From assembly GCA_040881685.1 (NCBI GenBank), contig JBBECS010000036.1, positions 143,711 through 207,710 on the forward strand: a stretch of 64,000 bases of DNA, read 5' to 3'. Shown here piece after piece: positions 10,992 through 46,922 of this stretch. Numbering within the stretch: the stretch's first letter is position 1; the number at the start of each line of letters is the position of its first letter. Source of the DNA: Acidimicrobiia bacterium (GTDB lineage: Bacteria > Actinomycetota > Acidimicrobiia > IMCC26256 > PALSA-555). The notes below the pieces were generated by a model, which made no database searches, was not told where the DNA came from, and saw nothing but the letters and a program-made list of their open reading frames with translations. A program made the translations under genes and the position numbers.

Positions 10992-11039
10992 GATGTTCCC
11001 ACCACCTGTAGTGGTAGTGGGAGTCAAGTTCGGCAGGAA

Positions 11040-11116
11040 GAAATGGGAGCGTTGAGGCCCGACCCGTAAGCGGTCACCTTGGGTTGGGTGGAGCAGCGGT
11101 GAGACCGGCCCATTTC
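11040..11116 (+). other. Candidate structured 5' leader RNA
   Basis: Within the 170-base leader, GAAATGGG (11040-11047) is fully complementary to CCCATTTC (11109-11116), closing a 61-base interior. Inside are CGGT/ACCG (11097-11107, GAG loop) and GACC/GGTC (11061-11075), giving a multibranched fold just upstream of the ribosome site. I do not recognise it as a known riboswitch class. It may control translation or stability of the surface protein. The 316-bp stretch 10853-11168 holds only this leader and its promoter, with no gene seen. Confidence 0.4.
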
Positions 11117-11168
11117 CTTATGACCGGGCGCGCGAGTGCGTGCTCGGAACAAGGAAAAGGGGACCGGA

Positions 11169-14100
11169 GTGCTGGGCTCATTGTCGTCGTTCCGTGCACG
11201 CTGTGCTGCATCCGAGGGGCGCGTCCGCCTGACGGCCGTCTTGACCGTCGTCGCCGTCATTGGCGCGTACCTCGCGCTCAACATCGGCATCGCGTTCGCG
11301 CACCATCCCGTGCTCAGCGGCACGACCACGTGCAACACGGATGGCTCGTGGAACGTGAGCTGGATCGTCTCGAACTCCGAGAGCGCGAGCTACAAGTGGA
11401 TGCGGCTCACTGCCGCGTCGGTGAACAACGGCCAGACCGTCACCGGGCTCACGATCAACAACGACACGAGCACAAACGTGCCCGAGTCGTCGCCGAACGT
11501 CCCGCCCGCGGGTCAGGGCTCGGTCCCGGCACAGACCGCGAACATCCCGAACAGCCTCTCGTCGGTGCAGCTCACGGTGAGCGGCTTCTGGAAGTGGCCC
11601 GCAGGTCAGGGTCACAGCGCCGGACAGTCCGGTCCGTCGTCGACCAGCTTCACCGTCCAGCGTCCGAGCAATTGCAACGCGCCGCCCGGCAGTCTCCAGG
11701 TCACGAAGGTCCAGGTCGGTGACCCGGGCCCGGGCCAGGGCTACCCGTTCACGGTGTCGGTCAACTGCGTGAAGAGCGGCTCGAACGTGGCCGGTTTCCC
11801 GCAGTCGCACCAGTTCCTCGCGGCGGCAAACAGCGCCTCGAACCCGTGGACGCTCACCAACGTCCCTGCAGGCGCGGTGTGCAGCGCGACCGAGGCCGAC
11901 AGCAAGGGCGCGGTGAAATCGATCAGCGGCTCCGTGACAATCGTCACCAACGAGACGAAGGCGATCACCGTCACGAACACGTACACGCCGGGCAGCCTCC
12001 AGGTCACGAAGGTGCAGGAAGGCGCGCCCGGCCCGGGCCAGGGCTACCCGTTCACCGTCTCGGTGACCTGCACGCTCAACGGCCAGAACGTTCCGGGCTT
12101 CCCCCAGTCGCACGACTTCCTCGCGCCCGCGACCAGCGCGTCGAACCCCTGGACGATCAGCGGCATCCCGAACGGCTCCTCCTGCTCGGCGAGTGAGGCC
12201 GACAGCAAGGGGGCGACGAAGACGATCAGCCCGACCTCCGTCACGATCGCGTCGAGCCAGACGAAGTCGATCCAGGTCAAGAACAAGTACGCAGACGGCG
12301 GCAAGGTCAAGATCACGAAGGTCCAGGTCGGCAACCCCGGCCCTGGTCAGGGATACCCGTTCACGGTCGACGTGACCTGCACGAAGAACGGCCAGACGCT
12401 GCCGGGCTTCCCCCAGTCGCACGAGTTCCTCGCGGCAGCGAGCAGCGCGTCGAACCCGTGGACGATCGAGAAGATCGCCGAAGGCGCGGTCTGTAGCGCC
12501 AGCGAGCCCAACAGCAAGGGCGCGATCGTCTCGATCACCGGTGGCGTCACGATCGTGACGAACGTGACGAAGGAGATCACCGTCACGAACACGTACACGC
12601 CGGGCAGCCTCCAGGTGACCAAGGTCATCGTGGGCACGCCGGGCCCGGGGGAGGGCTACCCCTTCACCGTCGATGTCACGTGCACGCTCAACGGCCAGAC
12701 GGTGCCGGCCTTCCCGCAGTCGCACGACTTCACCGCAGCCGCGCCGAGCGCGTCGAACCCGTGGACGGTCAACAACATCCCGTCGGGCTCGTCGTGCAGC
12801 GCGACGGAGACGAACAGCAAGGGCGCGGTCAAGAGCATCACCGGCCCGGTGACGATCACGTCGAGCCAGACGTCGTCGATCACCGTCACGAACACCTACA
12901 CGCCGGGCAGTCTCCAGGTGACGAAGTCGGTCACCGGTGTACCCGGGCCGGATGAGGGTTTCCCCTTCACCGTGTCCGTGACCTGCACCCTGAACGGTCA
13001 GACGGTCTCGGACTTCCCGAAGAACCACAACTTCACGACCGGCGACCCCGGGCCATGGGTGATCACGGCCATCCCGGCGGGATCGTCGTGCACCGCGACC
13101 GAGACCGACACCGGTGACGCCGATCAGGTGAACATCACCGGCAGCCCGACGACGATCGTCGCTGGCCAGCAGGCACTGATCGCCGTGGAGAACGTCTTCA
13201 TCGTCGGCAGCTTGCAGGTGACCAAGTCGGTAACGGGCACGCCCGGCCCGAACGAGGGCTATCCCTTCACGGTCGACGTGACGTGCACGCTCAACGGTCA
13301 GATCGTGGCCAGCTTCCCCAAGTCTCACGACTTCACGGCCGCGGCGCCGAGCGCGTCGAACCCGTGGAACATCTCGAACATCCCGTCGGGGGCGTCGTGC
13401 ACCGCGGGCGAGACGGACGACGGTGGCGCGGATTCGGTGAACATCACCGGGAGTCCGGCGGTCATCGTCGCCGACCAGACGAAGAGCATCGGTGTCGAGA
13501 ACGTGTTCACGGTTGGGAGCGCGGAGCTGACGAAGCTGGTCACGGGCACGCCCGGGCCGGGTGAGGGCTACCCGTTCACGGTCTCGCTGACCTGCACGCA
13601 GAACGGCGAGACGGTGCCGGGCTTTCCGCAGAACCACCAGTTCGACGCGGCGGCGCCGAGTGGGACCAACCCGTGGACCGTGAACGGCATCCCGTCGGGG
13701 GCGTCGTGCACCGCGGACGAGACGGACGACGGTGGCGCGGACTCGGTGAACATCACCGGGAGTCCGGCGGCCATCGTCGCCGACCAGACGAAGAGCATCG
13801 GCGTCGAGAACGTGTTCGGCGTGGGTGCGCTCGAGGTGACGAAGACGGTGCACGGCGAGCCAGCCATCGGCCAGGGCTACCCGTTCACGGTCGACGTGAC
13901 GTGCACGCTCAACGGTCAGACGGTGCCCGGCTTCCCGAAGACGCACGACTTCACGACGGCCAACCCCGGGCCTTGGACGATCACCGACATCCCTGCCGAC
14001 GCGCTGTGCACCGCGACCGAGCCCGACAGCAAGGGTGCGACGACGGTGATCGACCCGGATGCAGGCGTCACGATCGTGTCCGAGCAGACCCGCGAGATCG

Positions 14101-14606
14101 CGGTCAGCAACATCTACCCCAGTGGTGAGGCGGTCGGCTCCGTGCAGGTGCAGAAGGCGGTCGACGGCACGGGGAAGCCCGGCGTCGGCTCGAACGTGAC
14201 GTACACGGTCAACGTGAGCTGCACCGACGGCACCAACGTCGACCTGACCTTCGACGCCACCGGTGGCGTCAAGCAAGTCACCGGCATCGACATCGACCTC
14301 AACACCGGCACGAACTGCACGGTGAGCGAGCCCGAGACGGGCGGAGCGACCTCGGTGTCGTTCTCGCCGCAGAACGACGGCAAGTTCACGCTCACCGTGA
14401 ACAGCCCGGCCCACGACATCGTGGTGACCAACCTCTTCGACCCGCAGGTCGCGGGAATCAGCGTGACCCGAGCACTGCCCTTCACGGGATCGAGCTCGGA
14501 GCTGCTCTGGAAGTCGGGTGCCTGGCTGCTCGTTATCGGCGGGTTGCTCCTGCTGATCACGCGCCGTCGACGTAAGGCTGCAACGCAGGGGCTGGCAGCC
14601 GCGTAA
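11169..14606 (+). CDS. Large repeat-containing cell-surface protein (DUF5979 repeats, LPxTG-type anchor)
   Basis: 1145 residues from GTG at 11169, chosen because AAGGAAAAGGGG lies six bases upstream; a GTG at 11136 lacks such a site. N-terminal signal peptide: basic region, hydrophobic LTAVLTVVAVIGAYLALNI, likely cleavage after AFA. Then a ~140-residue unique domain, eight DUF5979-type repeats of ~100 residues (each with QVTK...GYPFTVDVTC and a Cys pair) and a divergent ninth. The C-terminus has LPFTG (14475-14489), a hydrophobic helix and an RRRRK tail, the classic sortase signal. Repeats probably form an Ig-like stalk. No sortase gene is in the window, so a remote one must anchor it. Ligand unknown. 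Confidence 0.85.
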   Translation: MLGSLSSFRARCAASEGRVRLTAVLTVVAVIGAYLALNIGIAFAHHPVLSGTTTCNTDGSWNVSWIVSNSESASYKWMRLTAASVNNGQTVTGLTINNDTSTNVPESSPNVPPAGQGSVPAQTANIPNSLSSVQLTVSGFWKWPAGQGHSAGQSGPSSTSFTVQRPSNCNAPPGSLQVTKVQVGDPGPGQGYPFTVSVNCVKSGSNVAGFPQSHQFLAAANSASNPWTLTNVPAGAVCSATEADSKGAVKSISGSVTIVTNETKAITVTNTYTPGSLQVTKVQEGAPGPGQGYPFTVSVTCTLNGQNVPGFPQSHDFLAPATSASNPWTISGIPNGSSCSASEADSKGATKTISPTSVTIASSQTKSIQVKNKYADGGKVKITKVQVGNPGPGQGYPFTVDVTCTKNGQTLPGFPQSHEFLAAASSASNPWTIEKIAEGAVCSASEPNSKGAIVSITGGVTIVTNVTKEITVTNTYTPGSLQVTKVIVGTPGPGEGYPFTVDVTCTLNGQTVPAFPQSHDFTAAAPSASNPWTVNNIPSGSSCSATETNSKGAVKSITGPVTITSSQTSSITVTNTYTPGSLQVTKSVTGVPGPDEGFPFTVSVTCTLNGQTVSDFPKNHNFTTGDPGPWVITAIPAGSSCTATETDTGDADQVNITGSPTTIVAGQQALIAVENVFIVGSLQVTKSVTGTPGPNEGYPFTVDVTCTLNGQIVASFPKSHDFTAAAPSASNPWNISNIPSGASCTAGETDDGGADSVNITGSPAVIVADQTKSIGVENVFTVGSAELTKLVTGTPGPGEGYPFTVSLTCTQNGETVPGFPQNHQFDAAAPSGTNPWTVNGIPSGASCTADETDDGGADSVNITGSPAAIVADQTKSIGVENVFGVGALEVTKTVHGEPAIGQGYPFTVDVTCTLNGQTVPGFPKTHDFTTANPGPWTITDIPADALCTATEPDSKGATTVIDPDAGVTIVSEQTREIAVSNIYPSGEAVGSVQVQKAVDGTGKPGVGSNVTYTVNVSCTDGTNVDLTFDATGGVKQVTGIDIDLNTGTNCTVSEPETGGATSVSFSPQNDGKFTLTVNSPAHDIVVTNLFDPQVAGISVTRALPFTGSSSELLWKSGAWLLVIGGLLLLITRRRRKAATQGLAAA
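11688..14135 (+). repeat. Eight tandem ~100-residue DUF5979 coding repeats
   Basis: Units start at 11688, 11991, 12300, 12603, 12906, 13206, 13515 and 13824, so periods are 300-312 bp; a divergent ninth unit starts at 14136. Units are recognisable in DNA as well as protein. The 130-bp ends of units six and seven (13379-13508 and 13688-13817) differ at only four positions, which points to recent duplication or gene conversion. Confidence 0.85.
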
Positions 14607-45168: not shown

Positions 45169-45266
45169 TGGGGTGGCTCGTGGGAACGGATGGGGGACGT
45201 GTGGTGGATGGGGGGTTGACCGTGGGGGAAAGTGGTCCTAATGTGCCCTGAAATGGTGGAAAGTGG
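45169..45266. promoter_or_regulatory. Candidate MraZ box region
   Basis: TGGGG (45169), TGGGA (45181) and TGGGG (45191) recur on one face, the last two exactly 10 bp apart, as in TGGGA-N5 boxes bound by E. coli MraZ. A second set, GGAAAGTGG at 45227-45235 and 45258-45266, is spaced 31 bp and overlaps the promoter. MraZ typically represses its own operon, so autoregulation is likely; which set is bound is unknown. Confidence 0.45.
45216..45244 (+). promoter_or_regulatory. Promoter of the mraZ-division cluster
   Basis: TTGACC (45216-45221), 17-bp spacer, TAATGT (45239-45244). Start of transcription near 45251, about 57 bases before the mraZ GTG. The best sigma-70-like promoter at the head of the cluster. 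Confidence 0.65.
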
Positions 45267-45307
45267 AGGAAGGCCTCTCGCGGGGGCCCCACTTCCACGA
45301 GGGGACC

Positions 45308-45742
45308 GTGGACGCATTCTTCGGAGAGTTCTCACACTCTCTCGACGACAAGGGACGGCTGATCCTCCCGGCCAAGTTCCGTCCTGCCCTGGAGGGTGGG
45401 GCGATGCTGGCTGCCGGGCAGGCGAAGTGTCTCGCCGTCTACACCCACGGCGAGTGGGAAGGCGTCGCCACCCGGACCAAGGAGCTGGCGCGCGAGGGCG
45501 GCGAGAAGATGAAGGTCGCCCGATTCATCTTCTCCCGAGCTAGCAGCGTCACCCCCGACACGCAGGGGCGCGTGTTGATTCCGCCCCCGCTTCGTGAGTA
45601 CGCGGGCCTCGAGCGCGACGTCTACGTGATCGGCAACGCGACACACATCGAGATCTGGGACGCCGAGCTGTGGCGCGAGCAGTGCGCAGAGGGATCCGCG
45701 CTGCTTGCAAGCGACAGCACGCTGCCCGGGATCCTGGTCTGA
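45308..45742 (+). CDS. mraZ: Transcriptional regulator MraZ
   Basis: 144 residues from GTG at 45308 (VDAFFGEFSHSLDDKGRLIL); the frame to 45263 adds an unlikely tail across the boxes. Two AbrB/SpoVT-like halves: DDKGRLILPAKFR in the first and DTQGRVLIPPPLREYAGL in the second, each carrying the DxxGRxxxP DNA-binding signature. It forms ring oligomers that bind repeats upstream of its own operon and can repress it; in some species it also limits MraW activity. First gene of the division cluster. Confidence 0.93.
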   Translation: MDAFFGEFSHSLDDKGRLILPAKFRPALEGGAMLAAGQAKCLAVYTHGEWEGVATRTKELAREGGEKMKVARFIFSRASSVTPDTQGRVLIPPPLREYAGLERDVYVIGNATHIEIWDAELWREQCAEGSALLASDSTLPGILV

Positions 45743-45804
45743 CGAGCAACGACAGCCAACCGAAAGGAGCACTCGCGAGCGAGCGCAGCCAACAACGACC
45801 CGTA

Positions 45805-45927
45805 CGGGTCTGCTACCAGCCCCCTGGTCGGCGCGGTGAAGCCCCTACTCCGCCCGCTTCCACCGAAGTCGATTCGGGGAGAAATCCGAACGGCACTCGT
45901 CCGTCCGGGGGGCTGGTAGCAGACCTG
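45805..45927 (+). ncRNA. mraW-type structured leader RNA upstream of rsmH
   Basis: GGTCTGCTACCAGCCCCC (45807-45824) is the exact complement of GGGGGCTGGTAGCAGACC (45908-45925), extended on both sides by wobble and canonical pairs to 45805-45827/45905-45927. The 83-base interior contains further pairing, for example near TTCGGGGAGAAATCCGAAC. The mraW RNA motif is known in actinobacteria at exactly this place, upstream of mraW (rsmH). I match it by position and architecture; a covariance search is needed. It would be transcribed from the mraZ promoter and may control the downstream wall genes. Confidence 0.65.
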
Positions 45928-45980
45928 GCGGGTTCCGAGGCGACAGCCCCGCAGCGTCGGTCGGTGGCAGAGGACACGTC

Positions 45981-46922
45981 ATGGGTCATTTCGCACACAC
46001 ATCGGTGATGACCCGAGAGGTGATCGAGCTCCTCGAGCCGGTGCCCGCAGGGTTGGTCGTGGACGCGACCGTCGGGGGCGGCGGACATGCACGAGCCCTC
46101 CTGACAGCACGACCCGACCTCCGCCTCCTCGGCCTCGACCGTGACCTCGATGCCGTCACTGCCGCAACCGCGGCGCTGGCGGAGTTCGGGGAGCGGGCCC
46201 GGGTGGTGCACGGCGGCTTCGAGAACCTGGCAACGATCGCAAGCGAGGCGAGCGAGGGGATGGTCATGGGAATCCTGTTTGATCTGGGTGTCAGCAGCCC
46301 GCAGCTCGATTGGCCCGAACGCGGCTTCTCGTACTGGGGCGAGGCGCCCCTGGACATGAGGATGGACGCCGCACAAGAGCTGACCGCGGCGATGGTGGTC
46401 AACGAGTACGCCGAGGCGGATCTTGTCGCGGTGCTCGAGCGGTACGGTGAGGAGAAGTTCGCCCGCCGAATCGCCGCGCAGATCGTGGCGCGGCGGCCGC
46501 TCGAGACCACTGCCGACCTCGTTGCGGCGGTGAAGGACGGGATCCCGGCGCGGGCGCGTCGACGCGGTCCTCACCCCGCACGTCGCACATTTCAGGCGTT
46601 GCGCATGGAGGTGAACCAGGAGCTGCCGAACCTCGCGTCCGGCCTCGACGAGTCGGTGCACCTCCTCGCGCCTGGCGGCCGCATCCTCGTGCTGGCGTAT
46701 CACTCGCTCGAGGACCGCATGGTCAAGGAGCGCTTCGCGCGTTGGACAGGTGCGAGCGAGCAGCCTCGCGGGTTCCCGGTCGAGCCGACCCGCAACGCGC
46801 TCGTGCGGCTGTTGACGCGCCGACCGCTTCGGCCCGGCCCTGACGAGGTGGCTGCCAACCCGCGCTCGGAGAGCGCACGGCTGCGCGCGGCGGAGAAGGT
46901 CGCCGCGACGGTCGAGTCATGA
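45981..46922 (+). CDS. rsmH: 16S rRNA m4C1402 methyltransferase RsmH (MraW)
   Basis: 313 residues. HTSVMTREVIELL opens the family; DATVGGGGHARALL is the SAM-binding motif I, DLGVSSPQLDWPERGFSY and APLDMRMD are diagnostic, then QALRMEVNQEL and AYHSLEDRMVKERF. It methylates N4 of C1402 in 16S rRNA. AGAGGAC precedes the ATG. The 238-bp gap to mraZ carries the mraW-type RNA. ftsL starts at an overlapping ATGA. Confidence 0.95.
   Translation: MGHFAHTSVMTREVIELLEPVPAGLVVDATVGGGGHARALLTARPDLRLLGLDRDLDAVTAATAALAEFGERARVVHGGFENLATIASEASEGMVMGILFDLGVSSPQLDWPERGFSYWGEAPLDMRMDAAQELTAAMVVNEYAEADLVAVLERYGEEKFARRIAAQIVARRPLETTADLVAAVKDGIPARARRRGPHPARRTFQALRMEVNQELPNLASGLDESVHLLAPGGRILVLAYHSLEDRMVKERFARWTGASEQPRGFPVEPTRNALVRLLTRRPLRPGPDEVAANPRSESARLRAAEKVAATVES

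Follow-up and report, generated by a model that had tools for sequence, protein, structure and literature searches.

A structured RNA conserved between mraZ and rsmH across Acidimicrobiia, a candidate translational leader of rsmH

Ribosomal proteins can control their own synthesis through leader RNAs in which the protein's binding site on rRNA is mimicked. At the head of the division and cell wall (dcw) cluster, the closest described RNA is the mraW RNA motif of Actinomycetales, which was reported as a probable RNA and a probable cis-regulator, with an uncertain standing as a riboswitch (Weinberg et al. 2010, PMC2864571). In Corynebacterium diphtheriae, mapping of the mraW transcription start places it downstream of the motif (PMC5784534), and coordinates for Corynebacterium glutamicum suggest the same arrangement (PMC3890552), so even the known mraW RNA is only a presumed leader. 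UpsM of Rhodobacter sphaeroides is likewise a structured leader in the dcw cluster, but it is found upstream of mraZ, with a terminator, and in Rhodobacteraceae only (PMC5089854). The element described here shares with mraW RNA its place in the mraZ-rsmH (mraW) interval, a long GC-rich stem, a conserved C-rich loop and a presumed cis-regulatory role. It differs in its loop (ACUCCGCCC rather than ACUUCCCC), in forming a three-way junction with a hairpin P3 in the order instead of one long hairpin, in being confined to Acidimicrobiia, and in that its basal stem, P1, includes the rsmH start codon in some families.

We analyzed a 64-kb stretch of DNA, referred to as the window. The genes on either side of the element, both on the plus strand, were identified by curated models scoring above their cut-offs as mraZ (45263 to 45742; TIGR00242, 112 bits) and rsmH (45981 to 46922; TIGR00006, 317 bits), bearing out the position between these genes given in a preliminary description of the stem. 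TIGR00006 defines the rsmH product as the 16S rRNA (cytosine(1402)-N(4))-methyltransferase. The genes that follow rsmH encode an FtsL-like protein (score under the model cut-off) and a penicillin-binding protein. The end of mraZ is separated from P1 by 62 nt, and P1 from the rsmH start codon by 53 nt, with a Shine-Dalgarno (SD)-like GAGG at about 45970. No intrinsic terminator or sigma-70 promoter was found in the window. Upstream of mraZ, at 45180 to 45230 and distinct from the RNA element, are direct TGGG repeats (GTGGGAACGGATGGGGGACGTGTGGTGGATGGGGGGTTGACCGTGGGGGA) as expected for MraZ operator boxes. Elsewhere in the window, a c-di-GMP-II-GAG riboswitch (RF03169, 58.6 bits, above cut-off) occupies 11037 to 11119, just 5' of an open reading frame (11136 to 14606) for a 1,156-amino-acid protein that has tandem repeats of about 80 to 100 residues and whose C terminus is LPFTG-like and includes a hydrophobic stretch. 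The gene for a putative surface protein rich in repeats thus carries a cyclic-dinucleotide switch.

The preliminary description had reported an 18-bp perfect stem enclosing an 83-base structured loop, and both parts of that statement were confirmed. The arms GGTCTGCTACCAGCCCCC (45807 to 45824) and GGGGGCTGGTAGCAGACC (45908 to 45925) are fully complementary across an 83-nt spacer and form the sole 18-bp perfect inverted repeat in the window at spacers of up to 150 nt; all 15-bp perfect repeats within the same limit are part of it. With wobbles included, P1 extends to 45805 to 45831 paired with 45901 to 45927 (plus strand, 26 pairs), and its 3' arm carries GGGGGG-CUG, a site that in divergent families is SD-like, with the rsmH start codon 6 nt further on. 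The 241-nt region from 45740 to 45980 has a folding energy of −125.7 kcal/mol (z = −5.3), which none of 200 shuffled sequences equaled. The 83-base loop consists of the top of P1 and two hairpins on the same strand. P2, whose 11 pairs are based on the alignment described below, has its 5' strand at 45834 to 45842 and its 3' strand at 45856 to 45865, flanking a loop with a nearly invariant core (CCCUACUCCGCCC, 45843 to 45855). P3 (GUCGAUUCGG-GGAGAAAU-CCGAACGGC, 45868 to 45894) was defined from the 42-sequence alignment and divergent loci; its loop, GGAGAAAU, is conserved within the order, and the whole hairpin is missing from some other families of the class. A possible competing hairpin, P0 (GACCCGUACGGGUC, 45797 to 45810, plus strand), would use the 5' foot of P1 as its 3' strand. 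At 15 of 41 loci, compared to 2 expected, the upstream 28 nt and the P1 foot gave a fold surpassing 95% of shuffles; in the window's own copy, the fold was not significant (z 0.4). Alternative hairpins downstream, using the P1 3' arm, showed no enrichment (5 of 41 loci).

We then assessed covariation in 42 copies aligned with MAFFT, blind to structure, using a model of 26 P1, 11 P2 and 9 P3 pairs. Overall, 92.6% of cells were paired compared to 81.5% in shuffles, and sliding the partner columns by 1 to 3 positions lowered pairing to 31 to 51%. Changes on both sides were seen in 32 of 46 pairs (20.1 in shuffles), and the covariation score was 0.406 (0.202 in shuffles); not one of 500 shuffles reached the observed pairing, double-change count or covariation score. 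Covariation in the arms, the absence of which the preliminary description had named as a refuting sign, was strong: in P1 alone, 93.9% of cells were paired and 23 of 26 pairs had changed on both sides. P2 alone was paired in 91.3% of cells. RNAalifold, run unaided, recovered P1 as modeled and the greater part of P2, with double changes supporting 27 of 37 pairs. G-U exceeded A-C by 184 to 41 cells (P = 4e−23; the cells are not independent, yet the excess is present in each stem), which places selection for the structure on the strand that carries mraZ and rsmH. A coding origin of the conserved stretch was rejected, as P2 and the junctions differ in length by single bases among sequences. The element is a conserved structured RNA.

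A BLASTN search with the 241-nt query detected the element in 44 of 61 related genomes at 70 to 90% identity, always in the mraZ-rsmH interval (at one locus, the contig breaks off short of mraZ). A covariance model of the element matched 51 of 58 genomes of the order. Among 397 genomes sampled from the phylum, 20 were positive in a reduced first-pass search that probably missed some, and all 20 belonged to the same class; outside the order, 17 further members of the class carry the element, and no match was obtained in about 359 genomes from other classes. All copies whose neighborhood was checked, divergent ones included, sit in the mraZ-rsmH interval. By covariance-model sampling, the element is class-wide in Acidimicrobiia and found only there. 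When 84,980 species were scanned for the exact 21-base loop pattern, 60 loci were returned, and all 60 have rsmH and/or mraZ next to them at the distance expected. The BLASTN, covariance-model and loop-pattern searches agreed on one copy per genome, at rsmH only. In L136, L137, L139 to L141 and L143 (L numbers denote loci), the element was lost along with the mraZ-rsmH gap. Several bins labeled Bifidobacterium breve or Acidobacteria (L206, L218, L220, L236, L209, L215 and L237) have an Acidimicrobiia-type element beside mraZ/rsmH, and these labels look wrong. A TTGACA hexamer, often as TTGACAGGYG, lies mostly 18 to 26 nt 5' of the P1 foot (e.g., L009, L018 and L031) in 24 loci, none of which has a recognizable −10 box; the window's own copy lacks the hexamer.

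The element is not the Rfam mraW RNA. Of the preliminary identification as mraW RNA, what stands is a structured RNA on the rsmH strand, at the mraW RNA position and with covarying arms; what does not stand is the family match. A search with the RF01746 covariance model, for which the membership threshold is 50 bits, gave no match at E ≤ 10, even over 321 bases (45700 to 46020). The identification was to be abandoned if the score fell below threshold and the arms lacked covariation; the score was below threshold, the covariation was overwhelming, and in that sense it was not refuted. None of 41 related genomes had RF01746 above cut-off, with the Corynebacterium glutamicum control detected, and eight divergent relatives gave no Rfam match at E ≤ 0.5. 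The only sizable RF01746 match in relatives (35 bits, L021) was rejected, as the hairpin resembles a terminator and follows a gene for an acyl-CoA ligase. Across the phylum, 13 of 297 genomes were above cut-off, none of them in Acidimicrobiia. Members of RF01746 (L255 to L272) carry ACUUCCCC loops, with a single ACCUUCCCC in L265. In L269, an mraW RNA locus from another class, the mraW RNA hairpin is duplicated: one long stem encloses a tandem pair of hairpins, both with the loop ACUUCCCC.

The best-surviving alternative is one of identity: the element may be a divergent form of RF01746, the two making up one rsmH-leader superfamily that would be read by the same factor through the C-rich loop. 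We regard this as a serious contender, if short of probable. The two RNAs share their place and a long GC-rich stem, their loops (ACUUCCCC and ACUCCGCCC) have intermediate forms, CUUCCGCCC in L148 and ACUUCGCCC in L149, and the tandem hairpins within one stem in L269 recall P2 and P3. Against it stand the missing RF01746 matches in the window and in the eight divergent members, and the behavior of R1, the covariance model of the element, which scored 12 to 30 bits on mraW RNA loci, no better than random hairpins scored in that search. No lineage with both RNAs, or otherwise a clear bridge, was found. A common origin, suggested by the same place and a similar C-rich loop, is possible. This alternative is compatible with the mechanism that we favor below and rivals it on identity only.

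The part of the element that changes least is the P2 loop. The sequence CTCCGCCCGCT is present in all 42 aligned copies. Class-wide, P1 pairing and the C-run/G-run are kept, P3 is missing in L096, L100 to L102 and L104, and CCGCCC in the P2 loop persists in divergent members with rare single changes, also where P3 is missing. The loop reads ACUCCGCCCG in most of these, CUACCGCCCG in L104, AAACCGCCCG in L147, CUUCCGCCCG in L148, ACUUCGCCCG in L149, CCUCCACCCG in L095 and CCUCCGCCCU in L097 to L099. Being single-stranded and nearly invariant while the stems change freely, it looks like a candidate binding site. Two intramolecular roles were considered and set aside. Pairing of the loop with GGGCGG (glycine codons) in the rsmH coding sequence was possible in 8 of 54 early stretches compared to 12 of 54 control stretches, and was also absent from low-GC genomes. 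A kissing interaction between CUCC in the P2 loop and GGAG in the P3 loop is possible in many copies but not supported as essential, since P3 is missing in several families in which the P2 loop is kept; in GAGAG-type P3 loops, the fourth CUCC-GGAG pair is lost.

In several divergent families, P1 includes the start of rsmH. The predicted P1 of L096, L102, L104 and L147 holds a G-run, six bases and then the rsmH AUG, and in L096, L102 and L104 the 5' arm holds the matching CAU (in L104, CAUGGUCAGCCCUCCGGA with UCCGGAGGGCUGACCAUG). The only or nearest in-frame rsmH start also falls within P1 in L092, L100, L101, L103, L235, L241, L246, L250 and L251. P1 is thereby predicted to cover the initiation region at about 13 loci in several families. 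This does not apply to the window genome, where the start lies 53 nt past P1; any control in that lineage would have to act from a distance or via flanking sequence, and the position of the start outside P1 in the window's own lineage counts against a translational role. On balance, the element probably controls rsmH translation.

The P2 loop also resembles the site on which RsmH acts. Within UACUCCGCCCGCU, ACxCCGCCCG matches 9 of 10 bases of the 16S rRNA stretch ACACCGCCCG, which we take to be E. coli positions 1396 to 1405, and cytidine 45853 is the counterpart of the RsmH target C1402; the genome's own 16S rRNA reads UACACACCGCCCGUCACAC at this site. A profile built from 20 divergent P2 loops scored the C1402 site highest in the genome's own 16S rRNA (10.5 bits; next position, 2.4), and the best position in the 23S locus, at 8.8 bits, was below it. 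Of 127,978 windows on both strands of the GC-rich 64-kb window, 24 scored at least as high, which gives a chance of about 2 in 10,000 for one named site before allowing for an idea formed post hoc. On the other side, composition alone yields such a match at times, as 78 of 1,000 shuffled 16S sequences had some position as good. As the comparison was conceived after the loop had been seen, we treat the likeness as a good lead, not a finding, that may well turn out to be fortuitous. The mraW RNA loop ACUUCCCC matches the C1402 site less closely, which counts against rRNA mimicry, and the place of mraW RNA ahead of the mapped mraW start in Corynebacterium counts against the leader model by analogy. 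Two properties of the enzymes count against RsmH as a ligand: E. coli RsmH methylates 30S subunits and not protein-free 16S rRNA (PMC5053481), and in human METTL15, binding to h44 RNA (about 1 μM) runs via the backbone, with no sequence specificity (PMC10828496).

The explanation we favor, though as a whole we rate it somewhat short of an even chance, is a cis-acting rsmH leader at the head of the dcw cluster that controls rsmH initiation, with RsmH as the likeliest factor. Closed P1 would lower rsmH translation, and the P2 loop would be the putative binding site of a factor that stabilizes the closed form. Two observations make RsmH the best candidate: the P2 loop copies 9 of the 10 bases around C1402, and the element occurs only at rsmH. 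As the ligand of the loop, RsmH is plausible rather than probable. Free RsmH that outnumbers unmethylated 30S subunits would in this case repress its own mRNA, in the manner of ribosomal proteins. The further proposal that the leader serves as a decoy for the 16S decoding site, which RsmH would bind and perhaps methylate at the C1402-equivalent cytidine, seems rather unlikely. Like autogenous ribosomal-protein leaders, the element precedes a gene for an rRNA-acting protein, has a loop that may mimic the rRNA site of that protein and, in several families, is predicted to enclose the initiation region. Unlike them, it concerns an rRNA methyltransferase as a putative binder, and the likeness is a short single-stranded stretch with no shared fold.

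Binding of another ligand by the P2 loop (another RNA-binding protein, a small RNA or, as in a riboswitch, a metabolite) is unlikely. A junction of two hairpins whose loops are both conserved within the order would suit it, as would competition from P0 in part of the loci. Of the features by which a riboswitch is judged, the conserved core is present and a P0/P1 alternative is possible (15 of 41 loci), but the window has no terminator-like site, and the element, single copy and at rsmH only, is unlike a general regulator or a metabolite sensor, for which sites at other genes too are to be expected. Still less likely is a role in which RNase III cuts the mraZ-rsmH transcript, or ribosomes finishing mraZ open a coupling hairpin. 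P1, at 26 pairs, is long enough for RNase III, and in families like that of L147, mraZ ends a few nucleotides before P1; neither process requires an invariant 11-nt loop, however, and mraZ in the window stops 62 nt before P1.

A stem at the start site could also read the methylation state of the ribosome and not RsmH itself, such that rsmH would be translated well only by ribosomes carrying m4Cm1402. A 2026 preprint on Bacillus subtilis provides the precedent, in that start-hiding stem-loops of cmpA and isp are reported to make translation MraW dependent and stronger stems to block it (PMC13317604). In several families, P1 conceals the start of rsmH in a similar way, with the same tie to C1402 methylation; the cmpA and isp stems, in turn, are weaker, have no reported conserved loop and are not at rsmH. 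As the explanation of the element we consider this improbable: it accounts for P1 but not for the nearly invariant P2 loop, which is conserved even where rsmH starts about 50 nt downstream, its feedback would be positive and not negative, and the 18-bp GC stem would be far stronger than those tested in B. subtilis. A start stem linked to C1402 methylation could nonetheless be a second route for RsmH self-regulation. A DNA element, either promoter or operator of rsmH, is very improbable. In its favor, 24 of 44 loci have TTGACA a short way 5' of the P1 foot. Against it, no −10 box stands at the right distance, the window has no promoter-like site, and free variation of P1 with pairing kept and a G-U to A-C ratio of 184:41 are unlike a DNA site.

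If the decoy proposal is correct, an rRNA methyltransferase would gauge its unmethylated substrate and set its own level accordingly, tying ribosome maturation to the division and cell wall operon. In many bacteria, rsmH sits near the head of the division and cell wall cluster, and the favored leader, through control of RsmH dosage by its substrate, would offer a testable reason for this. It may also provide a handle on the mraW RNA, a puzzle open since 2010, by asking whether a C-rich loop read by RsmH is the feature that the two RNAs have in common.
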